The notes under the pieces were generated by a model. The model saw only the letters and a program-made list of their open reading frames with translations. It made no database searches and had not been told where the DNA came from. This document shows, piece after piece, positions 54,296 through 64,000 of a DNA stretch of 64,000 nt. Location: NCBI RefSeq assembly GCF_006517435.1, contig NZ_VHQG01000002.1, positions 350,732-414,731 on the forward strand, given 5' to 3'. The translations under genes and the position numbers were made by a program. Source of the DNA: Schumannella soli. GTDB lineage: Bacteria > Actinomycetota > Actinomycetes > Actinomycetales > Microbacteriaceae. How positions within the stretch are numbered: position 1 is the stretch's first letter; each line of letters begins with the position of its first letter.

Positions 54296-56419
54296 TCAGG
54301 CGCGCAGCGCGAGCGCGAACGGCATCACAGCCTCGGCGCCGGCATGCCGCAGCAGCCGCGCGGCGACGGTGAACGTCCAGCGCGAGTCGGCGACATCATC
54401 CACGAGCAGCACCGGGCCCGGATGCCCCTCCAGCTGCTCGCTCAGCGCCGCGCCGACCTGGAACGACGACCACACGCCGGCGAGTCGGAACGCGCTCGCT
54501 CCGCCGGCGCCGCTCGGCGGCGCTTCCGGCACGGCGTCGAGCTCGCCGAGGATCGGCAGCCGTCCGACGCGCGACAGCCCTTCCGCGAGCGAGCGGATCA
54601 GCTGCGGGCGTGAACGACTCGGCATCGTGACGATCCCGACGGGGCGGGCAGCCCATCCCCATTCCGCAAGCACCGACACGGCAGCGTCGAGCAGGGCCGG
54701 CGGCACCGGCGCATCCTCGTGCCCCGGCGCGAAGAGCTCGCGCAGCGGGCCGCCCCAGCCGAGGTCGGTGAGTCGGGCGACCGCGCGCCCCTCGTCGGGA
54801 CGCTCCGCCGGGGCGATGTTGCCGCGCACGGGGATACCGCGCTCGCTCGCGCCGACCGGCCACTGCTTGCGCGGTTCGAGCGCGACGCCGGCGCGGCGCA
54901 GCGCGGCGTCGGCGGTCGATCGTCCGTCGCCGGCGACCTCGGCCGGGTACCAGGCGCCGGCGCAGAGGTCGCAGCGTCCGCAGGGCACCGCGCTGTCGTC
55001 GTCGAGGGCGTTCTGCAGGAATTCCATGCGGCAGCGGATCTGCTCGCTCACGCCCCGCGACTCGTAGGTCAACATGCTGTTCTGCTCGGCCTGCCGGGCT
55101 TCGGCGATGCGCCGGTAGCGTTCCTCGTCGTAGACCCAGGGGGAGCCCGTCGACACCCATCCGCCGCGCACACGGCGGACGGCGCCATCCACGTCGAGAA
55201 CTTTCAACAGCAGTTCGAGTCGGCTGCGCTTCACGTCGACGAGCGCTTCGAGCGCGGGTGTGGAGGTCGGCTCGTCGAGCCGCAGTTCGGCCAGCACCGC
55301 TTCGGCGCGCTCGCGTGTAGGCATGCTGGTGGTGGCGAAGTACTCCCAGATCGCGCGGTCTTCGCTGCCGGGCAGCAGCAGCACGTCGGCGGAGTCGGTG
55401 GCGCGCCCGGCGCGTCCGACCTGCTGGTAGTAGGCGACGGGCGAACTGGGCGCGCCGAGGTGCAGCACGAAACCGAGGTCGGGCTTGTCGAAGCCCATGC
55501 CGAGCGCGCTGGTGGCGACGAGCGCCTTCACCTGGTTGTCCTTGAGCGCGGCCTCAGCCTGCTGCCGCTCGGCGGTCTCGGTCTGCCCGGTGTAGGCGAG
55601 CACCTCGTGCCCGGCCTGGCGCAGCAGCCGCGCGGTGTCCTCGGCGGCGGAGACCGTGAGCGTGTAGATGATGCCCGAGCCGGGCAGGTCGCCGAGGTGC
55701 TCGAGCAGCCAGCCGAGCCGGGTGGCCTGGTCGGGCAGCTCGAGCACGCCGAGCCGCAGCGAGCGGCGCGCGAGCGGTCCGCGGATGGTGAGCACGTCAT
55801 CCGCCCCGCCCAGCTGCTCGACGACGTCGGTGACGACGCGCGAATTGGCGGTCGCGGTCGTCGCGAGCGCGGGGATGGATGCGGGCAGCTCGGCGACGAG
55901 GTCGCGCAGCCGCCGGTAGTCGGGCCGGAAGTCGTGCCCCCAGTCGGAGATGCAGTGCGCCTCGTCGATCACGAGCAGGCCGGTGCGCTCGATCAGCTGC
56001 GGCAGCTGCTCTTCGCGGAACTGCGGGTTGTTGAGCCGCTCGGGCGACACCAGCAGCACGTCGATGTCGTCGGCCGCGAGCCGCGCGCGCACGTCATCCC
56101 ATTCGTGCTGATTGCTGGAGTCGATGGATGCGGCGCGAACCCCGGCCCGAGCCGCCGCCGCGACCTGGTCGCGCATCAGCGCCAAGAGAGGGGAGACGAG
56201 GATGGTCGGCCCGGCCCCGCGGCGCCGCAGCAGCAGCGTCGACACGAAGTACACGGCCGACTTGCCCCACCCGGTGCGCTGCACGACGAGCGCCCGCCGC
56301 CGATCGTCGACGAGCGCCGAGATCGCCTCGAACTGCCCCTCGTGGAAGTCGGCGTCATCCCGCTGCACCAGCTCCCGCAGCGCGTCGAGGGCGGCCCCGC
56401 GTGTCGTCGTCTCCGTCAT
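54296..56419 (-). CDS. RecQ-family ATP-dependent DNA helicase with C-terminal PRTase-like segment
   Basis: A 707-residue SF2 helicase. Walker A is RTGWGKSAVYF (about 48-58), motif II DEAH at 152-155 in LLVIDEAHCISDWGHDF, and motif VI QQVGRAGRATDS. A zinc-type Cys cluster follows (CRMEFLQNALDD through CGRCDLC), as in RecQ-Ct. The last 200 residues are not the usual HRDC domain; they contain LLVDDVADSRWTFTVAARLL, close to the PRPP-binding motif of phosphoribosyltransferases such as ComFC. Related fusions occur in actinobacteria, with unknown purpose. The gene converges on mfd (57-base gap), and its start faces the defence-like operon, 120 bases away. Confidence 0.9.
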   Translation of the reverse strand: MTETTTRGAALDALRELVQRDDADFHEGQFEAISALVDDRRRALVVQRTGWGKSAVYFVSTLLLRRRGAGPTILVSPLLALMRDQVAAAARAGVRAASIDSSNQHEWDDVRARLAADDIDVLLVSPERLNNPQFREEQLPQLIERTGLLVIDEAHCISDWGHDFRPDYRRLRDLVAELPASIPALATTATANSRVVTDVVEQLGGADDVLTIRGPLARRSLRLGVLELPDQATRLGWLLEHLGDLPGSGIIYTLTVSAAEDTARLLRQAGHEVLAYTGQTETAERQQAEAALKDNQVKALVATSALGMGFDKPDLGFVLHLGAPSSPVAYYQQVGRAGRATDSADVLLLPGSEDRAIWEYFATTSMPTRERAEAVLAELRLDEPTSTPALEALVDVKRSRLELLLKVLDVDGAVRRVRGGWVSTGSPWVYDEERYRRIAEARQAEQNSMLTYESRGVSEQIRCRMEFLQNALDDDSAVPCGRCDLCAGAWYPAEVAGDGRSTADAALRRAGVALEPRKQWPVGASERGIPVRGNIAPAERPDEGRAVARLTDLGWGGPLRELFAPGHEDAPVPPALLDAAVSVLAEWGWAARPVGIVTMPSRSRPQLIRSLAEGLSRVGRLPILGELDAVPEAPPSGAGGASAFRLAGVWSSFQVGAALSEQLEGHPGPVLLVDDVADSRWTFTVAARLLRHAGAEAVMPFALALRA

Positions 56420-56539
56420 GCCCCCAACGATGTCAGCACCGACCGACAGGGGCGCGCAGCGTCCCAGGCGGAGTCGAGCCGCGCGGCGCTCAAGGCGCGC
56501 CTACTGAGGATCGATTCGTTTGTCGGCGATGATCGCAGC

Positions 56540-56770
56540 ATGGCCCGGATTCGATCGATCGAGCATGGAACCCAGAACGTCAAGGCTCATCCATCCGAGG
56601 TCGACTGCTTCGTTCAGGATTTCGAGGCCGCGGACGGAACTAAGCTGCTTCACCTGTCGACTTTCGGATCTTCCGATCGAGCGAGCCAGCCGAAGAGCAG
56701 TCAATCGATCCAGCTCGATCGGGAGCAGGCCATGGTCCTGCGCGACTGGATCGACAACGTGTTCGGGTGA
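56540..56770 (+). CDS. Small conserved-looking protein heading the methyltransferase operon
   Basis: A 76-residue soluble protein starting at ATG 56540. It reads MARIRSIEHGTQNVKAHPSE at the start, has the middle DGTKLLHLSTFGSSDR, and the end QLDREQAMVLRDWIDNVFG. The pattern of beta strands followed by a final helix, without low-complexity, suggests a real folded domain of about one repeat. I recall similar short proteins next to DNA methyltransferase genes but cannot name a family. It is the first gene of the island, 120 bases from the divergent helicase, and 79 bases before the methyltransferase start. It may be a regulator, a DNA-binding adaptor or an inhibitor of the system; no function is shown. 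Confidence 0.72.
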   Translation: MARIRSIEHGTQNVKAHPSEVDCFVQDFEAADGTKLLHLSTFGSSDRASQPKSSQSIQLDREQAMVLRDWIDNVFG

Positions 56771-56774
56771 GGCG

Positions 56775-56852
56775 ATGTCGCCGGGTCGAACTAGTGTTCG
56801 GATCAAGAAGAGAGTCGGCGTTCTCGCCAGCAAGTCGAAGGGCCACAAGTGA
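56775..56852 (+). CDS. Candidate 25-residue basic leader peptide
   Basis: A tiny frame fills the gap between the 76-residue protein and the methyltransferase. It encodes MSPGRTSVRIKKRVGV plus LASKSKGHK, with eight Lys/Arg. It starts four bases after the preceding stop, and its TGA overlaps the methyltransferase GTG as GTGA, the same coupling used elsewhere in this operon. A leader peptide that couples translation is possible; a chance frame is also possible. Confidence 0.35.
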   Translation: MSPGRTSVRIKKRVGVLASKSKGHK

Positions 56853-57958
56853 CTGATCTCACGTTCCGCATGGGCGAACTTTTCTGTGGTCCGGGAGGCA
56901 TGGCCAAGGGTGCACACAACGCAGCCGAGTCGGTCGGCGTCACTCTGCAGCACGCTTGGGCCAACGACTACGACGCGGATACCTGCGCGACTTATCGGCA
57001 CAACATCATCGGCGCGACCGACGAGAGCGTGATTCACCAGGACGTCAAGGAGCTGGCCATCGAGCAGCTCAGCGGCATCGATGGCTTCGCGTTCGGCTTC
57101 CCCTGCAACGACTATTCGCTGGTCGGCGAGTGGCGGGGGCTCGACGGCAAGTACGGGCCGCTCTACTCCTACGGTGTCCGTGTTCTGGAGGCGCACAAGC
57201 CCCGGTGGTTCGTGGCGGAGAACGTCTCCGGCCTGCAGAGCGCGAACGAGGGAAAGGCGTTTCAGAAGATCCTCGACGAGCTGTCGGCGGCGGGCGAGCA
57301 CGGCTACAAGCTGTACCCCCACCTCTACAGCTTCGATCAGTACGGCGTTCCGCAGCGCCGGCGCCGAATCATCGTCGTCGGCATCCGCGGCGATCTCGAC
57401 GTCGACTTCAAGGTGCCTTCACCGGAGATCTACGCGGACCGGCCGGTCACGGCTCGCCACGCGTTGACCGTTCCGCCGATGACGGGATCGATGCTCAACC
57501 ACGAGCGCACGCGTCAGTCATCGACCGTCGTCGAGCGTCTCGATTACATCGCGCCGGGGGAGAACGCATTCAATGCCCCCGGCATGCCGGATCGTCTTCG
57601 ACTGAAGGTCAAGGGTGCCACGATCAGTCAGATCTACCGCCGCCTTCACCCTGACCAGCCGGCGTACACCGTGACCGGGTCCGGTGGTGGCGGAACTCAC
57701 GTCTATCACTGGGACGAGTCCCGCGCGCTTACGAATCGTGAGCGCGCTCGGCTGCAGTCTTTCCCCGATGACTACGAGTTCATCGGCCAGAAGGAGAGCG
57801 TGCGGAAGCAGGTCGGCATGGCCGTGCCAGTCAAGGGCGCTGAGGCCGTCTTCACCGCGCTGTTCAATTCGTTCAAGGGCGTCGGTTACCCGTCGATCGC
57901 CCCCAGTCTGGGGTACGTGCCCGCCAAGTGTCGTTCAGATGTCGGAGGCGATCAGTAA
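56849..57958 (+). CDS. DNA (cytosine-5-)-methyltransferase
   Basis: A 369-residue C5 methyltransferase with all core motifs: I, FCGPGGMAKG (12-21) for SAM; IV, GFPCNDYS with catalytic C86; VI, FVAENVSGL (E124-N125-V126); VIII, QYGVPQRRRRI (164-174); IX, RALTNRERARLQSFPD (292-307); X, QVGMAVPVKGAEA (321-333). Motif IV reads PCN in place of the common PCQ. The target-recognition region between VIII and IX is only about 110 residues. It transfers methyl groups to cytosine in an unknown short DNA site, presumably marking self DNA for the ATPase and nuclease genes downstream. GTG 56849 gives MTDLTFRMGELF; ATG a few codons later would also keep motif I. Confidence 0.95.
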   Translation: MTDLTFRMGELFCGPGGMAKGAHNAAESVGVTLQHAWANDYDADTCATYRHNIIGATDESVIHQDVKELAIEQLSGIDGFAFGFPCNDYSLVGEWRGLDGKYGPLYSYGVRVLEAHKPRWFVAENVSGLQSANEGKAFQKILDELSAAGEHGYKLYPHLYSFDQYGVPQRRRRIIVVGIRGDLDVDFKVPSPEIYADRPVTARHALTVPPMTGSMLNHERTRQSSTVVERLDYIAPGENAFNAPGMPDRLRLKVKGATISQIYRRLHPDQPAYTVTGSGGGGTHVYHWDESRALTNRERARLQSFPDDYEFIGQKESVRKQVGMAVPVKGAEAVFTALFNSFKGVGYPSIAPSLGYVPAKCRSDVGGDQ

Positions 57959-59468
57959 GGTCTTCTCAAAGTCGCCGCCTGGCGATCAGAAGAGGGACCT
58001 GAACTTGCAAGACGAGATCGTCGAACCTGGCGTCGATCTGCTCGAGTCGATGCGCTCTGTCGGCTATTCGCTCGATGCAGCGCTGGCGGATCTGATCGAC
58101 AACAGCATCACCGCGGACGCGAAGACAATCGACATCGACGCGGACGTCGTCGACGGAAGTTTCGTCGCGATCCTCGACGACGGCACCGGTATGAGCCCAA
58201 CAAGAGCGCGAGAGGCGTTGCGTTTGGCCGGCTCAGTCGACTCGAGGTCCACCGCTGACCTTGGGCGCTTCGGGCTCGGGCTCAAGACCGCATCACTATC
58301 GCAGGCGCGATGCCTGACCGTCGTCACCAAGTCCGATGGCGTTACTACCGCTTTGCGCTGGGACATCGATCATGTTCGCGAATCACGCCAGTGGAGCCTG
58401 CTGGTTCTGTCCGAGCCTGAGATTCAGGGGTTGCCCCTCGTGTCCGCCCTCCAAAGTCAGCAATCAGGAACCCTTGTCGTCTGGGAGTACTTGGATCTGC
58501 TCATCGGCGATGCTGCGGATCGTGGAGCCTTCCTCCGAGAACGAGTTCTGGATGCCGCGGGCGCTCTGGCGCTTGTCTTTCATCGCTTTCTCGCGGGTCC
58601 GGGAAGGATCGTCATCCGAGTCAACGGGGCGAAGCTGTCCCCGATCGATCCGTTCGTCACGTCTAACACTCGGACCCAGATCAGTCCGACCGACGAACTG
58701 ACGATTGCCGGTGAGAAGGTGTCGGTCACGGCGTACACACTTCCCCACCCGAGTGGAATGACCCCGGCTGAGCGAGCGCGCACCGACCTGTCGACAGGCA
58801 TGCGCGAGGCCCAAGGCTTCTACATCTATCGCAACCAGCGACTGATTTCCCGGGGCAACTGGTTCGGCCTCGCGTCCCGGAGTGAGCTGACCAAACAGAC
58901 GCGAATCCAAGTCGACCTCCCGAACACCGTCGACAGTCTCTGGCAACTCGATATCAAGAAGTCTCGGGCGGAGCCGCCCGCGTCGTTCAAGGCTCACCTC
59001 AAGCGGATCATCGATCCGCTGCTCGACAAGGGACGTCGGGTGCATACATACCGCGGCCGCAAGACGAGTGAAGCTGAGATCGTACGAGGGTGGAACAAGC
59101 TCGACGTGCGCGGGAACGTGCAGTACGTCGTCAACGAGGACCATCCATTGCTCGTGTTGCTGAAGAGCCGAATTGGCGAGGAAGAGCGAGACCTCCTTGA
59201 GAGTGTCATCGGACTTCTATCAGACACCTACCCGACTCATGACCTCTACGCCGAGATGGCTGCGAGCAAGGTTGCCGGTGTCGCTCTGCCCGATATCGAT
59301 GGAGCCAGGGTGAAGCTCCAGCTGCTCCAAGACGCGGGGATGCTGGGCACCAGTGCCGAAGAGGCTACGGCTCGCCTCGTGGAGATCGAGCCGTTCAATG
59401 CCGTACCCGATCTTCTCGAGCTGATCCGCGCCGTGATGATGGAGAGCCCCGATGCAACTGAGTCCTGA
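57939..59468 (+). CDS. GHKL ATPase of the prokaryotic MORC/MutL-like group
   Basis: A 509-residue protein from ATG 57939 (20-base overlap with the methyltransferase); TTG 58005, seven bases after AGAGGGA, would give 487. The Bergerat ATP fold is clear: N motif LDAALADLIDNSI (45-57), G1 AILDDGTGMS (78-86), G2 LGRFGLGLKTASLS (108-121). The usual catalytic Glu of the N motif is Asp here (D51), as I recall for this subfamily. Residues about 260-400 resemble the S5 transducer domain, including GFYIYRNQRLISRGNWF. The C-terminal third is helical and unassigned. Such ATPases dimerise on ATP binding and clamp DNA; here it probably senses or remodels foreign DNA for the neighbouring nuclease. Confidence 0.9.
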   Translation: MSEAISKVFSKSPPGDQKRDLNLQDEIVEPGVDLLESMRSVGYSLDAALADLIDNSITADAKTIDIDADVVDGSFVAILDDGTGMSPTRAREALRLAGSVDSRSTADLGRFGLGLKTASLSQARCLTVVTKSDGVTTALRWDIDHVRESRQWSLLVLSEPEIQGLPLVSALQSQQSGTLVVWEYLDLLIGDAADRGAFLRERVLDAAGALALVFHRFLAGPGRIVIRVNGAKLSPIDPFVTSNTRTQISPTDELTIAGEKVSVTAYTLPHPSGMTPAERARTDLSTGMREAQGFYIYRNQRLISRGNWFGLASRSELTKQTRIQVDLPNTVDSLWQLDIKKSRAEPPASFKAHLKRIIDPLLDKGRRVHTYRGRKTSEAEIVRGWNKLDVRGNVQYVVNEDHPLLVLLKSRIGEEERDLLESVIGLLSDTYPTHDLYAEMAASKVAGVALPDIDGARVKLQLLQDAGMLGTSAEEATARLVEIEPFNAVPDLLELIRAVMMESPDATES

Positions 59469-62184
59469 CCAGAAGTCCGTCGAGGCCCAACTCACGACGT
59501 GGGTTCTCGGTGAAAATCAGCGGGGTCGGTCCGTTGATCTTGCGGCCCTTGAAGAGAAGGCCGGCCTCGTCGCTTCGATCTTCAGTCCCGACCTTACCGA
59601 ACACGAGATCGCACAGGTCGTCGTCGTGGTGACGACCAAGGGAGATGTGAAACAAGCCGCTGACGTAGGAGTAGTCGGGGCCGATTTCGAAGAATGGATT
59701 CAGGCACGCAAAGCCGAGGTCGAGGAGAGTCGCTGGGAGGCCTACAAAGGTCTCCTGATCTCGCGCGGCTTTGCTCCCGCAGTGATCGATGCTCTCGGCC
59801 GTCAAACAGATGCCGTGGTCGAACTAATGGGTGACCCTCATCGGACTGGTCCGTGGGCGCGCCGCGGCCTACTCATGGGAGAGGTGCAATCTGGCAAGAC
59901 CGCCACATACCTCGGGGTCTTGAACAAGGCCATCGATCACGGATATCGCGTGATCGTGATTCTCGGAGGTCACACGAACGATCTGCGCAGTCAGACCCAA
60001 CGTCGTGTCGACACTGATCTCACGGGAACCAACTCGACGTTCCTTGAAGACAACATATCGGTGGCCGGGGAACAGATCCGGATCGGCATCGGTCTTGTAA
60101 ATCCGACTCTGACGGCGAACAGCATGACCACGGTTCGCCGCGACTTCAGTGCCGAGTCGAAGCTCGCGGGGATGGTCTGGGTCTCTTCTGGCATGCCGAC
60201 GGTCTTTGTGGTGAAGAAGAACGTCAAGATGCTTGAGAACGTGCGGAAGTACATTGCCGCTCAGGCCGGACCGGATGGCCTGGACCTTCCACTCGTTGTG
60301 GTAGACGATGAAGCTGACTGGGGCAGTCCCAATACCAACGACCCGGATACGGATCCCACGCGGGTGAACAAGGCCGTTCGCAGTCTGCTGGACGTGTCGT
60401 CTCGGAACACCTACGTCGGGATCACAGCGACGCCGTTCGCTAACGTGCTGATCGATCACACGATCGAGGACGATCTCTTCCCGAGCGACTACATCCGCGC
60501 GCTGGGAGCACCGAGCAACTACTCCGGTGTCGACACGTATTTCGGAGCTGGAAGTTCTGCAATCCGAACGGATGTGGACGATTGTCTCGCGGTCCTTCCG
60601 CTCAAGCACAAGAAGGATCATCAGCTCGCGTCGCTGCCGTCGAGCCTTGAAGACGCGCTGATCGCCTTCTTCCTGGGCACGGCGATTCGCAGGATCCGTG
60701 ACGGCGCGACCGTGCCCGCTTCGATGATGGTGAACGTCTCTCGATTCAATCTCGTTCAGATCGTTGTGAGCCGACTCGTGAAGGACTTTGTCTCGGAGGT
60801 CGCGGGTGTCATCGCCACCGAGTTCGAGCGCATCGGCGGCACACGACGAAGCCAGCTGGCCGAGCGGATCGAACGTTCGATGGCGCAGCTGTATCCGTTG
60901 GATTCGAACTGGTCTGAGATCGAGCGCGAGCTGATCGACGTCGCTCGGGAGATGCGCGTAGAAGTGGTCAACAATCAGACCGCGGCCGAGCGCGCCAAGA
61001 CGCGTCGACTGATGTCGCATGAACAACGCGTCGCTGAGGACCTGAAGCCAGTGATTCTCATCGGAGGCGACGTGCTGTCGCGCGGACTGACGCTCGAGGG
61101 TCTGCAGGTGAGCTATTTCGTTCGTCAGCCGGGATCTGCCGACACGCTGCTCCAGATGGGGCGATGGTTCGGATATCGCCCCGGCTACGAAGATCTCGTC
61201 AGAATCTGGATTCCCCGAAAGGTTGTAGAAATATTCGGGAACGTGGCGGCGATGAACCGCGATCTTCGCGAAGACCTCATGGAGATGCAGGCGAATGAGC
61301 TGACGCCGCGGCAGTTCGGGCTCAAGATCCGTTTGATCCCAGAGATCGCGATTGTTGCTGCGAACAAGCGTCGCGCCGCCGAAGTTGCGGAAGTGAGGGT
61401 CAGTCTTCACGGGCAGATTCGTCAGTCGGTCGACCTGTCAAGCGACGTGGGGGTTCGCAATGCCAACGCCGAGGCTGTCGACAGGTTGGCCAGGCGACTT
61501 GAGGTGTCCGGTATCCGATTCAAGCCGTCGGGCCATGAATATGGGTGGCACGGCGTTCCGCTCGAGGCCGTGACCGAATTCATCGCCTCGTTCCAGGGCC
61601 ATTCGATTGATCCCTTCTTTTCACGATCAGGTCGCGACGGCCGTCCCCAGATCGCGAAGTTCCTACCTGAAGCCCGAAACAGCGACGGATGGGATGTCGT
61701 GTTCGTCAGTGGAGGCGGCAGGAGTGTGATGATCCCGCATATAGGTGACGCTTCCCGGGCGAGCGTGAGAAATGAGCTGAGGTACATCGCGAGCGACAGC
61801 CAACTGCATTTCCAAAACCGGCAGATCGCGAGCCCGTCTGACGTGCGAGGTGCTCTTGAAGAGAGCGAGGTCGTGCGCATCAAGGCGTCGGCGCCTGAGG
61901 GCGCCAAGCTGAATGAGGGCGAGTATCTTCGCCATTACATCGAACGCCCGATTCTGATGTTGTACGCGGTCACGCGCGAGGACAAGGGTGACGGCCTCGT
62001 CATCGATGAATCCGACCCGCTGTGGGCGGTTCGTGTCGCCTTCCCGAGGCTGACGCCGGAGGAAGAGCAGGACTACATCGCCGCCGGCGGCGGAGTCAAG
62101 ATCCTGGTCAACACCGTCTGGCAGGAGCAGTTCTTCGGCACGGACCAGGAATCTGACGACTACAACGAGGAGCTCGACGGATGA
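59452..62184 (+). CDS. Z1-domain SF2-like ATPase
   Basis: A 910-residue protein. Helicase-like motifs are present but divergent: Walker A GEVQSGKT (143-150), Walker B VVDDEADWG (283-291), motif III ITATPFANVL (324-333), then the Z1 signature SRGLTLEGL (543-551) and QMGRWFGYR (568-576), matching motifs V and VI. Residues about 360-530 are a helical insertion between the RecA-like lobes. The N-terminal 130 and C-terminal 250 residues are unassigned. Z1 proteins are known from computed restriction-type neighbourhoods and are predicted DNA motors; no nuclease motif is seen in this protein. ATG 59452 overlaps the GHKL gene by 17 bases, and the next gene overlaps by four. Confidence 0.92.
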   Translation: MQLSPDQKSVEAQLTTWVLGENQRGRSVDLAALEEKAGLVASIFSPDLTEHEIAQVVVVVTTKGDVKQAADVGVVGADFEEWIQARKAEVEESRWEAYKGLLISRGFAPAVIDALGRQTDAVVELMGDPHRTGPWARRGLLMGEVQSGKTATYLGVLNKAIDHGYRVIVILGGHTNDLRSQTQRRVDTDLTGTNSTFLEDNISVAGEQIRIGIGLVNPTLTANSMTTVRRDFSAESKLAGMVWVSSGMPTVFVVKKNVKMLENVRKYIAAQAGPDGLDLPLVVVDDEADWGSPNTNDPDTDPTRVNKAVRSLLDVSSRNTYVGITATPFANVLIDHTIEDDLFPSDYIRALGAPSNYSGVDTYFGAGSSAIRTDVDDCLAVLPLKHKKDHQLASLPSSLEDALIAFFLGTAIRRIRDGATVPASMMVNVSRFNLVQIVVSRLVKDFVSEVAGVIATEFERIGGTRRSQLAERIERSMAQLYPLDSNWSEIERELIDVAREMRVEVVNNQTAAERAKTRRLMSHEQRVAEDLKPVILIGGDVLSRGLTLEGLQVSYFVRQPGSADTLLQMGRWFGYRPGYEDLVRIWIPRKVVEIFGNVAAMNRDLREDLMEMQANELTPRQFGLKIRLIPEIAIVAANKRRAAEVAEVRVSLHGQIRQSVDLSSDVGVRNANAEAVDRLARRLEVSGIRFKPSGHEYGWHGVPLEAVTEFIASFQGHSIDPFFSRSGRDGRPQIAKFLPEARNSDGWDVVFVSGGGRSVMIPHIGDASRASVRNELRYIASDSQLHFQNRQIASPSDVRGALEESEVVRIKASAPEGAKLNEGEYLRHYIERPILMLYAVTREDKGDGLVIDESDPLWAVRVAFPRLTPEEEQDYIAAGGGVKILVNTVWQEQFFGTDQESDDYNEELDG

Positions 62185-63140
62185 TCGCGACAGCGATCGA
62201 AACAGCAATGGGGGGTGTACCGGGTCGCACGGTTGGCCTGGTCGACCACCCGCATCTGTCGATGTGGGCGCAGAATCTGGGTGATCGCCCCGGTCTGCTG
62301 GTGGATGTCACCCTGCCAGCGGGCGTCGTCATCGAAGATGGTCGCGGTTTCGACGTCGCCCCGGTCGCACGAAATGGGAAGTCGTCGCTGCTCATCAAGC
62401 CGACCATTCCGGGCGATCCGTCCGCGGCGTTCGTCGGGCTCGTCGAATATCTCTATCGGCAGACCGCGGGCGTGGACACGCCGCCGGCTGCGGTCGTGGC
62501 CCTGGTGGATTCGATTCAAGAGTTTCGGCGGTTCTTCGGGCGCAAGTCCGAACGGCTCAGCGAGGCCGAAGTCCGCGGGCTCTTCAGCGAGCTCTTGCTC
62601 TTGGTCGAGCTCATGGACGCAGGTAGGTCGCCGAATACGGCGCTCGCGGCATGGTCGGGCCCATGGGGAGCAGCTGATTTTCGGTTCGCCGACGACAGCG
62701 CAATCGAGGTGAAGTGTGTGCGCCCTTCTGCGACGGGTGTTCGCGTGTCGTCGGAGTATCAGCTCGAGGTGCCTTCCGGAGGCATGCACCTCTTCGTTCT
62801 TCCGCTAGCTGACGCCGACCCCGCTGCGACTGGATCCGCCAGGCTCATGGACCTCGTCGGCGAAGTCTCCGCGCGCGTTGCGGGAGACCCGCTGGCGCTT
62901 CGCCGGTGGTTCGAAGCGCTCGACACACTCGGGTTCGATACATCGGACGTCTACTACGAGCAATGGAGCTTCGTCCCTGAGTCATGGGTGGCGTTCGAAG
63001 TGACCGATGAATTCCCTGCCCTGCGCGTCAGGGATCTGCCAGCGGGGGTGTCGGGGGTGGGCTACTCGATCGCGTTGGCGGCTGCCGAGGCTTTCGAAGT
63101 GGATGCGTCGCGGGCGATCGCGTCAGGAGGCGCCAAATGA
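62181..63140 (+). CDS. PD-(D/E)XK nuclease-like protein (DUF4420-like)
   Basis: A 319-residue protein with the residues of a PD-(D/E)XK nuclease core: an upstream helix Glu in VRGLFSELLLLVEL (E137), then GAADFRFADDSAIEVKCVRP holding D166 and the E176-V-K178 motif. These would bind Mg2+ and cut DNA. The arrangement and length fit the DUF4420 family. The N-terminal 110 residues form a separate beta-rich part, maybe for DNA or partner binding, and the C-terminal 130 residues end in an Ala-rich helix. It is the only clear nuclease candidate in the operon. Four-base overlaps with the Z1 gene and with the AIPR gene imply a fixed protein ratio. Confidence 0.88.
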   Translation: MIATAIETAMGGVPGRTVGLVDHPHLSMWAQNLGDRPGLLVDVTLPAGVVIEDGRGFDVAPVARNGKSSLLIKPTIPGDPSAAFVGLVEYLYRQTAGVDTPPAAVVALVDSIQEFRRFFGRKSERLSEAEVRGLFSELLLLVELMDAGRSPNTALAAWSGPWGAADFRFADDSAIEVKCVRPSATGVRVSSEYQLEVPSGGMHLFVLPLADADPAATGSARLMDLVGEVSARVAGDPLALRRWFEALDTLGFDTSDVYYEQWSFVPESWVAFEVTDEFPALRVRDLPAGVSGVGYSIALAAAEAFEVDASRAIASGGAK

Positions 63141-64000
63141 CCGAGGCCAATCAACTTGACGATCTTCGAAACGAGATCAGCCTTCAAGCCGCGGGCAGCG
63201 CAGGCTTCGAGATCGAGGCCTTCGCGCGCGTGTATGCAACTCGCCTCGAAGAGGCCGAGCAGGTCTATGACCTCAACGTCGAGGTTCTGCGGTGCTCTGG
63301 ACCGCGTGGTCGGAGGGTCGAACTGCTCGGCTACGCGGAAGACGAGACTGACGGCACGTTGACGATCCTGGCGGGAAAGTACTTCGGCACCGATGAGACC
63401 TTGCGACTATCCGATGCCACCGAGGTCTTCAAGCGCTCTGCGGAGTTCCTGGAGCTCGCCGTCAGCGGTTGGGTGCGCGACAACCTCGAGGCGTCGTCGC
63501 GCGAGGCCGAGTACGCGGAATACTTCGCGGGTCAGTTCCGGCGAGGCAAGGTGTCGCGCATTCGCGCCGTTCTGATCACCGACGGGGTGATGAGCGACCG
63601 GATCCGCTCGATCGAGACCGGAACTCTCTGCGGCGCGAAGATCACATATGAGATCTGGGATCAGCGACGCCTGACCGCTGCTGCTCGCCCATCTGTCGGG
63701 AGCGAGGACATCCGAGTCGACTTCACCCGCTGGATGAAGCGAGGCCTGCCGTGTCTGCCTGCCGAATCCGGAGAGGACGGCACGCAGACCTACATCGCGG
63801 TGATCCCGGGACGAGTGCTCGCCGATGTGTTCGAGGAATACGGCAGTCTCCTCCTCGAATCCAACGTGCGAACGTTCCTGAGCGCGCGTGGTGCGGTCAA
63901 CAAAGGCATCCAGTCGACGCTGGCGAATGCTCCACAACGCTTCCTCGCCTACAACAACGGGCTGACGACGACCGGGATCGATGCCGTCGTTTCCGACGAG
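63137..64000 (+). CDS. AIPR-family protein, 3' partial
   Basis: The frame opens at ATG 63137 (four-base overlap with the nuclease gene) and stays open for 288 codons to the window edge, so the gene is incomplete. The AIPR (abortive infection phage resistance) signature is plain at residues 238-280: LLLESNVRTFLSAR, then AVNKGIQSTLANAPQRFLAYNNGLTTTG. The N-terminal 220 residues contain TILAGKYFGTDETLRLSDA and a charged helix pair typical of the family. AIPR proteins were named from a lactococcal plasmid phage-resistance gene and recur in restriction-type islands; their activity is unresolved. Full-length members are usually 550-700 residues, so about half is visible. More genes of the island may lie beyond. 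Confidence 0.93.
   Translation, partial: MTEANQLDDLRNEISLQAAGSAGFEIEAFARVYATRLEEAEQVYDLNVEVLRCSGPRGRRVELLGYAEDETDGTLTILAGKYFGTDETLRLSDATEVFKRSAEFLELAVSGWVRDNLEASSREAEYAEYFAGQFRRGKVSRIRAVLITDGVMSDRIRSIETGTLCGAKITYEIWDQRRLTAAARPSVGSEDIRVDFTRWMKRGLPCLPAESGEDGTQTYIAVIPGRVLADVFEEYGSLLLESNVRTFLSARGAVNKGIQSTLANAPQRFLAYNNGLTTTGIDAVVSDE

Follow-up and report, generated by a model that had tools for sequence, protein, structure and literature searches.

An MZA-like operon with a C5-cytosine methyltransferase on a low-GC island of Schumannella soli

Gene content and conserved gene order

The window analysed here is a 64,000-nucleotide stretch of Schumannella soli contig NZ_VHQG01000002.1, and its end, positions 56540-64000, holds six consecutive plus-strand genes for a 76-residue protein (P76), a C5-cytosine DNA methyltransferase (MTase), a GHKL ATPase, a Z1 protein, a DUF4420 protein and an AIPR protein (Table 1). 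The original prediction, made from the sequence alone, had placed a six-gene operon at this position; its coordinates, shared strand and overlaps of 4-20 bases were reproduced, the overlaps from MTase to AIPR being 20, 17, 4 and 4 bases, with a gap of 78 bases between P76 and the MTase gene. The domain calls made at that time (C5-MTase, GHKL, Z1, PD-(D/E)XK and AIPR) were likewise borne out by Pfam matches above the curated cut-offs for all five proteins, P76 being the exception among the six. The closest solved relative of the MTase is M.HaeIII (PDB 1dct), and human MORC2 is the closest PDB match of the GHKL protein. The window end cuts the AIPR gene, and the full gene and the convergent vsr gene were read from the adjoining contig DNA.

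Table 1 Features of the operon and its surroundings, numbered from the first base of the window
Feature	Position	Strand	Assignment
P76 (76 aa)	56540..56770	+	no family; predicted beta3-alpha fold; motif TYG/TFG..R....K.SQS.Q.D; putative accessory
C5-cytosine DNA methyltransferase (369 aa)	56849..57958	+	PF00145, 228 bits; TIGR00675; PDB 1dct, E 2e-27
MORC-type GHKL ATPase (509 aa), MzaB-like	57939..59468	+	HATPase_c_3, 112 bits; PDB MORC2, E 2e-8; N-box Asp51
Z1-domain ATPase of superfamily 2 (SF2) type (910 aa), MzaC-like	59452..62184	+	PF10593, 208 bits
DUF4420 PD-(D/E)XK nuclease (319 aa), MzaD-like	62181..63140	+	PF14390, 129 bits; D166, E176, K178
AIPR protein (695 aa), MzaE-like	63137..64000, gene runs on to 65224	+	PF10592, 284 bits; AIPR_N, 82 bits (full gene)
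vsr, convergent to the operon	65221-65685 (beyond the window end)	-	Vsr, 65 bits; TIGR00632, 129 bits against a cut-off of 98
Low-GC island	56451..64000, extends to 65697		61.8% GC against ~72.3% around it

Relatives of the operon were examined in two sets of loci, annotated by iterated profile searches that started from the window proteins. The first was a class sample of 394 genomes with 47 Z1 places in 42 genomes, of which 41 places (above 300 bits with our own profile) were counted for gene order and 6 at 98-263 bits were dropped. The second consisted of named loci, the best 80 of 575 relatives by similarity to the window Z1 protein, with 83 Z1 places, and is biased towards the Z1 subfamily of the window because it was picked by that similarity. 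Z1 was present in 42, DUF4420 in 31 and AIPR in 45 of the class genomes. All 31 DUF4420 genomes also carry Z1, when ~3 would be expected under independence, so that the two co-occur beyond chance and, as the original prediction had anticipated, the homologues travel together in other genomes. AIPR is also found without Z1 and is therefore not specific to this system.

The same-strand order GHKL>Z1>DUF4420>AIPR is kept at 74 of the 83 named Z1 places, which come from many phyla by record title; of the nine that depart from it, some are on truncated contigs. A C5-MTase gene lies within 8 kb at 71 of the 74 ordered places, together with Vsr at 57 and upstream on the same strand at 32; over all 83 places, 77 have an MTase within 8 kb and 58 have Vsr. 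In the class sample, AIPR is present at 10 of the 41 places, all 10 in the order GHKL>Z1>DUF4420>AIPR and all 10 with an MTase, which lies upstream on the same strand in this window only. The remaining 31 places have no AIPR within 8 kb, and 3 of them have no other system gene. The nearest named Z1 relative (61%) comes from a Microbacteriaceae bacterium. Among 72,556 plasmid records, 41 contain a Z1 relative, and the conjugative plasmid pASPHE302 carries the same five genes in identical order, at 35-62% identity to the window proteins and, as in the window, with the MTase gene directly upstream of GHKL on the same strand.

Some variants were observed among the relatives. Two Arthrobacter loci (L101 9764-18423 and L105 6939-15809; L and G numbers are our labels for loci and genomes) have AIPR between two Z1 genes, with DUF4420 after the second only. 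Z1 relatives were also present in six phage-collection records (MT836482.1, MT835895.1 and four others) filed as Bacteriophage sp. and derived from human faecal samples.

Relation to described systems

Operons of this kind have been described computationally before. The operon type and motifs of a third type of MORC operon were set out by Iyer, Abhiman and Aravind (2008), and in the sections devoted to it this operon comprises a MORC GHKL ATPase, a distinct superfamily II helicase with the C-terminal-domain motif DThhQXuRhFG and a restriction-endonuclease-fold protein with the pattern E-D-ExK, a cytosine methylase and Vsr being frequently nearby and a figure legend naming AIPR, commonly found in restriction-modification operons (PMC2292703). 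The window operon has the same hallmarks. Its GHKL protein carries the MORC-specific S5 motif GhXhhpXXRhl as GFYIYRNQRLI at 293-303 (G293 and R301 in 80/80 aligned loci), its Z1 protein carries DThhQXuRhFG as DTLLQMGRWFG at 564-574 (D, Q, R, F and the final G in 80/80, T in 77/80), its DUF4420 protein has the D...ExK residues D166, E176 and K178 (each in 80/80), and MTase and Vsr genes are both present. Those sections of the 2008 paper mention neither P76 nor the N-box Asp of the GHKL protein, both of which are features of the window operon.

A similar set was predicted by Miller et al. (2022) as putative defence system type II, consisting, in the part of the paper that treats it, of a Z1 protein of ~925 residues, a PD-(D/E)XK protein (printed as DUF4220), a cytosine MTase, AIPR and a MORC-annotated protein, with a putative transcriptional regulator also mentioned and further investigation called for (PMC9523054). 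Type II is described there as related to mzaBCDE at ~20% identity and as reminiscent of the validated mzaABCDE, in which mzaA is a sigma factor and mzaBCDE are the related components, MzaA occurring in only a few type II systems (PMC9523054). The window holds the same genes for Z1, a PD-(D/E)XK protein with a DUF assignment, cytosine MTase, AIPR and MORC, a likeness at the level of gene content.

MZA (mzaABCDE; Gao et al. 2020) is reportedly an anti-phage system. In both PADLOC and NCBIfam, MzaB, MzaC, MzaD and MzaE are the best families for the four core proteins GHKL, Z1, DUF4420 and AIPR, but the NCBIfam equivalog cut-offs are missed by a wide margin (291 of 850, 372 of 1500, 59 of 420 and 285 of 1050 bits, respectively). 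The same pattern, best matches to Mza families that fall short of these cut-offs, holds for five proteins (Z1 or GHKL) of three further loci in the set. MZA also possesses the sigma factor MzaA, whereas no sigma-factor match was found in the seven proteins of the window island, and an MTase is present. Membership in MZA proper is thus ruled out by the equivalog scores, and a novel class is ruled out by the MZA matches and by the cited sections of PMC2292703 and PMC9523054. The original prediction had held that no HsdR is present and that the system is distinct from types I-III. The first part stands, as no HsdR/Res, HsdS or Mod Pfam match was found among the six operon proteins; a new class is unsupported, given the descriptions of 2008 and 2022 and the likeness to MZA. 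The gene set, one of whose bacterial products is related to the MORC ATPases of eukaryotes, has been predicted twice before. New here are P76, the Asp of the MORC protein, the loose coupling of the MTase, the reading of AIPR and the variable slot in which the operon lies.

CglI and NgoAVII offer a further comparison, as their Z1-bearing N-proteins are DNA-dependent ATPases required for cleavage (PMC4267653). These systems have in common with the window an MTase, a Z1-bearing ATPase and a separate nuclease; they differ in having three genes, a PLD-type nuclease with a B3 recognition domain and no GHKL or AIPR protein. No PLD or B3 Pfam match was found among the window operon proteins.

Active sites, co-inheritance and a restriction-type reading

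In addition to the motifs above, the Z1 residues of QSGKT, DDE..D, TATP and Q-M-.-RWFGYR are invariant over the 80 loci, as are the Pro-Cys, ENV and QxRxR residues of the 80 aligned MTases, of which 76 read PCQ and that of the window reads PCN. The N-box Glu of GHKL ATPases is the general base. In the GHKL proteins of this operon, the residue aligned with the MORC2 Glu is Asp in all 80 aligned copies (Asp51 here) and in 103 of 105 close copies altogether, the other two of which begin at a contig edge, so that all 103 uncut copies have Asp. Of 13 more distant GHKL proteins, the five with an N-box Glu are all from other Z1 loci; Asp is seen in one fragment, and the remaining seven did not fit the pattern used. 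This Asp suggests that ATP hydrolysis by the GHKL protein may be slow or specially gated. In VcSduA, another GHKL defence protein, the substitution E27A, made to disrupt ATP hydrolysis, abolished activity according to the section reporting it (PMC12137116). In the Z1 loci L065, L066, L067, L068 and L069, which lack AIPR, the GHKL protein is a distant one and keeps the usual Glu in its N-box. At three further loci (L036 1679-5298, L038 15237-18487 and L055 15691-19096), a GHKL gene of the same family adjoins the MTase gene on the opposite strand, besides or replacing the Z1-adjacent copy.

The AIPR alignment, comprising 65 of 88 distinct sequences (90 rows; most others were left out by choice), contains 28 invariant columns, all outside the N-domain and 23 of them within 243-401, among them NNG 273-275, N304, G305 and QTT 307-309. 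In the predicted model (mean predicted local distance difference test score, pLDDT, 89.9), the N-terminal region runs helix, three strands, helix, an arrangement known from PD-(D/E)XK folds. No conserved D...ExK was found in the N-domain columns, inspected in every third of the 65 rows, and the window protein has Leu where many aligned copies carry Asp. The N-domain appears degenerate because this active site is missing from the inspected rows and the invariant columns lie elsewhere, and we infer from the model that AIPR combines a degenerate nuclease-like N-domain with a ParB-like core, possibly binding nucleoside triphosphate (NTP), and is probably not a second nuclease. The best Foldseek matches were all weak: MspJI (probability 0.90, E 0.41), AF1548 (0.89, E 0.59) and a pNOB8-like ParB-N domain (0.47, E 0.73). 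PDB sequence searches with AIPR and with Z1 gave zero matches.

The match to MspJI, a modification-dependent nuclease, would favour a type IV-like system in which the complex attacks foreign-modified DNA and the MTase is a decoy or threshold-setting partner. We regard this as very improbable, as the match is weak, the AIPR N-domain has no conserved active site, and a co-encoded 5-methylcytosine MTase would make self-targets for a nuclease dependent on that base.

Co-inheritance was assessed from pairwise distances at 80 of the 82 loci holding all five genes, with 500 permutations for each of ten comparisons. The distances of GHKL, Z1, DUF4420 and AIPR correlate with one another at 0.75-0.87 and those of the MTase with the core four at 0.42-0.47, and in none of the ten comparisons did any of the 500 permutations match the observed value. 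DUF4420 is the most divergent (mean distance 0.74 against 0.63-0.65 for the others). After subtraction of the mean of the other core proteins, residual MTase correlations were 0.03-0.12, and with values this small no single core protein stands out as the reader of the MTase site. The moderate MTase-core correlation fits an exchangeable MTase and would also fit an MTase that is merely a frequent neighbour.

If the latter, two systems would adjoin at the locus, namely an MZA-like core, abortive or nucleolytic in action and blind to methylation, and, apart from it, an MTase-Vsr pair retained for unrelated reasons. The correlation of only 0.42-0.47 and the occurrence of the MTase on either side and either strand speak for such an arrangement, as does the make-up of MZA, a sigma factor plus mzaBCDE in the sections cited, which indicates that MZA, the relative, may work without an MTase (PMC9523054). 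Nevertheless, the MTase lies within 8 kb at 77/83 named and all 10 AIPR-type class places, every MTase-core correlation is above all 500 permutations, and the MTase stands directly before GHKL on the same strand in the window and in pASPHE302. On balance, two independent systems seem unlikely, though they deserve serious consideration.

The low-GC island includes P76 and is bounded by sequence shared with the same-genus genome G601, whose match to the left flank extends to 56450 (96.7% over 479 bases and 96.4% over 1181 in two comparisons) and resumes on the right at 65698 (92% over 2167 bases and 95% over 1541). G601 lacks the operon and has ~1.0 kb with an HNH_2 gene in its place (L178 534-1427). 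The operon was probably acquired horizontally, lying as it does on a low-GC island without counterpart in G601. Beyond vsr lies a VTT-domain (DedA-like) gene, then one for a protein kinase. Five same-genus genomes, including that of the window, were searched for the VTT gene and three have a close relative (≥92% identity); G599 and G600, with a distant VTT gene only, were left out of the comparison. The third genome, G602, has genes for a C5-MTase and a GHKL protein between an mfd-like gene and the VTT gene (L203 7002-10313), and the TIR_2 match of this GHKL protein is sub-threshold (17 vs 28 bits). Because G602 has no recQ-like gene between its mfd-like and VTT genes, its slot corresponds only approximately; both gene names (mfd and recQ) come from reading translations, not from family scans. 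Across the three genomes, the occupant of the slot next to VTT thus differs: the operon in the window genome, an HNH_2 gene in G601, and a C5-MTase with a GHKL protein of weak TIR likeness in G602.

Vsr proteins repair T:G mismatches that arise when 5-methylcytosine deaminates, and the presence of vsr next to an MTase and a GHKL protein that is weakly MutL-like might point to an epigenetic or repair locus (MTase, Vsr and MutL/MORC-like ATPase) without a role in defence. This has the slimmest chance of the alternatives weighed here, in view of the patchy distribution of Z1 (42/394 class genomes), the low-GC island, the copy on a conjugative plasmid, the nuclease or MTase genes in the corresponding slot of relatives and the likeness to MZA.

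The reading we prefer, at a probability of about 0.68, is that of a horizontally acquired restriction-type defence operon, a sister of MZA, in which the MTase would mark host DNA and the core four proteins would work as one effector that attacks unmarked DNA. This reading draws on the domains, the kept order, the co-inheritance of the core, the invariant catalytic residues, the island, the nuclease or MTase genes at the corresponding site of two relatives, pASPHE302 and the analogy to CglI and NgoAVII. The Z1 protein would then serve as a DNA motor driven by ATP, the MORC-type GHKL protein as a clamp gated by ATP and the DUF4420 protein as the nuclease, so that the cleavage of unmarked DNA, presumably that of phages, would fall to the last of these. 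AIPR might serve as a scaffold or NTP-sensing regulator with a degenerate nuclease-like N-domain, P76 as an optional accessory, possibly nucleic-acid-binding, and Vsr may repair the mismatches left by deamination of the bases that the MTase methylates.

Several points weigh against this reading. The core proteins miss the MZA equivalog cut-offs by far; the position and strand of the MTase vary and its co-inheritance is moderate, so that it may serve a separate function; and the Foldseek matches of the AIPR and P76 models all have E >0.3, unrelated folds among them. A scan of 56380-57000 for promoters of sigma-70 types, the only types covered, found none, and a literature search, mostly at title level and with few subscription journals and preprints, found no experimental test of the MTase-MORC-Z1-DUF4420-AIPR set.

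A more speculative extension, which we hold to be doubtful, is that the core proteins form a general engine for attacking DNA, whose sequence specificity comes from whichever MTase adjoins it, with a slow Asp-type MORC clamp holding DNA until the Z1 motor fires and P76 acting as a small single-strand-binding adaptor common to several otherwise unrelated nuclease systems. A plug-in MTase that supplies specificity would explain the freer exchange of the MTase than of any core gene. Independently of this extension, four points can be tested: the fixed Asp in the active site of the MORC protein, the loose coupling of the MTase, the apparent degeneration of the nuclease domain in AIPR and the family to which P76 belongs.

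The P76 family

The window P76 (P0001) had no Pfam, NCBIfam or PADLOC match. Homologues were recovered with an iterated hidden Markov model at 62-123 bits, giving 18 sequences, of which 17 were aligned and a short copy of 53 residues (L128) was left out. G43, R47, S54, Q55, Q58 and A64 are invariant in this alignment. A scan of the 17 members gave no NCBIfam match, and single members gave weak matches to PADLOC PDC-S18 (E 0.005), Pfam (best E 0.085) and PHROGs (best E 0.018); a PDB search with the family profile returned two chance-level matches. Three strands followed by a C-terminal helix make up the predicted model (pLDDT 88.5), whose top Foldseek probability was for Borrelia Pur-alpha (3nm7; 0.96, template modelling score 0.56, E 0.41), a weak match. 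Others, all with E >0.3, were Rim1 (binding single-stranded DNA), a PC4 homologue and human PURA, as well as the unrelated kinesin MKLP1 and cystatin. A profile comparison with only three DUF3276 sequences was negative and so gave no support to a sequence relationship to DUF3276/Pur, which leaves only the weak fold resemblance to Pur. That P76 binds nucleic acid is, from these models, a plausible guess.

P76 was rejected as a core gene of the operon, as it lies beside only 7/83 named and 3/41 class Z1 places. Three close relatives (L084, L085 and L204) yielded no P76, although two of them, L084 and L085, have no more than 0.8 kb of upstream sequence on their contigs. In seven named loci (L099, L128, L134, L138, L156, L159 and L161), P76 overlaps or lies <100 bases from a gene of the same system. 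Homologues also adjoin two other Z1 systems (L066 and L068) and lie near Mrr and type I restriction genes (L077), HNH_2 and NERD-UvrD (L079), UvrD and SNF2-type helicases (L076), GmrSD_N (L082), a C5-MTase with Vsr (L083) and a C5-MTase 2-4 kb away (L078 and L174). At L080 only a DUF6551 protein was scanned, and L081, L175 and L176 were outside the Pfam scan. Members of this family, which had no name before, are thus repeated neighbours of the present operon and of other nuclease systems. P76 may therefore be an accessory used more widely in defence loci, possibly common to several systems, the counts being without a control for nuclease genes near random genes. P76 had no match in the phage collection and was present in 11/394 class genomes, in one plasmid record and in 3/196 genomes of the class of a Ruminococcus locus (query genome included), and it was single copy in the five P76-bearing genomes searched.

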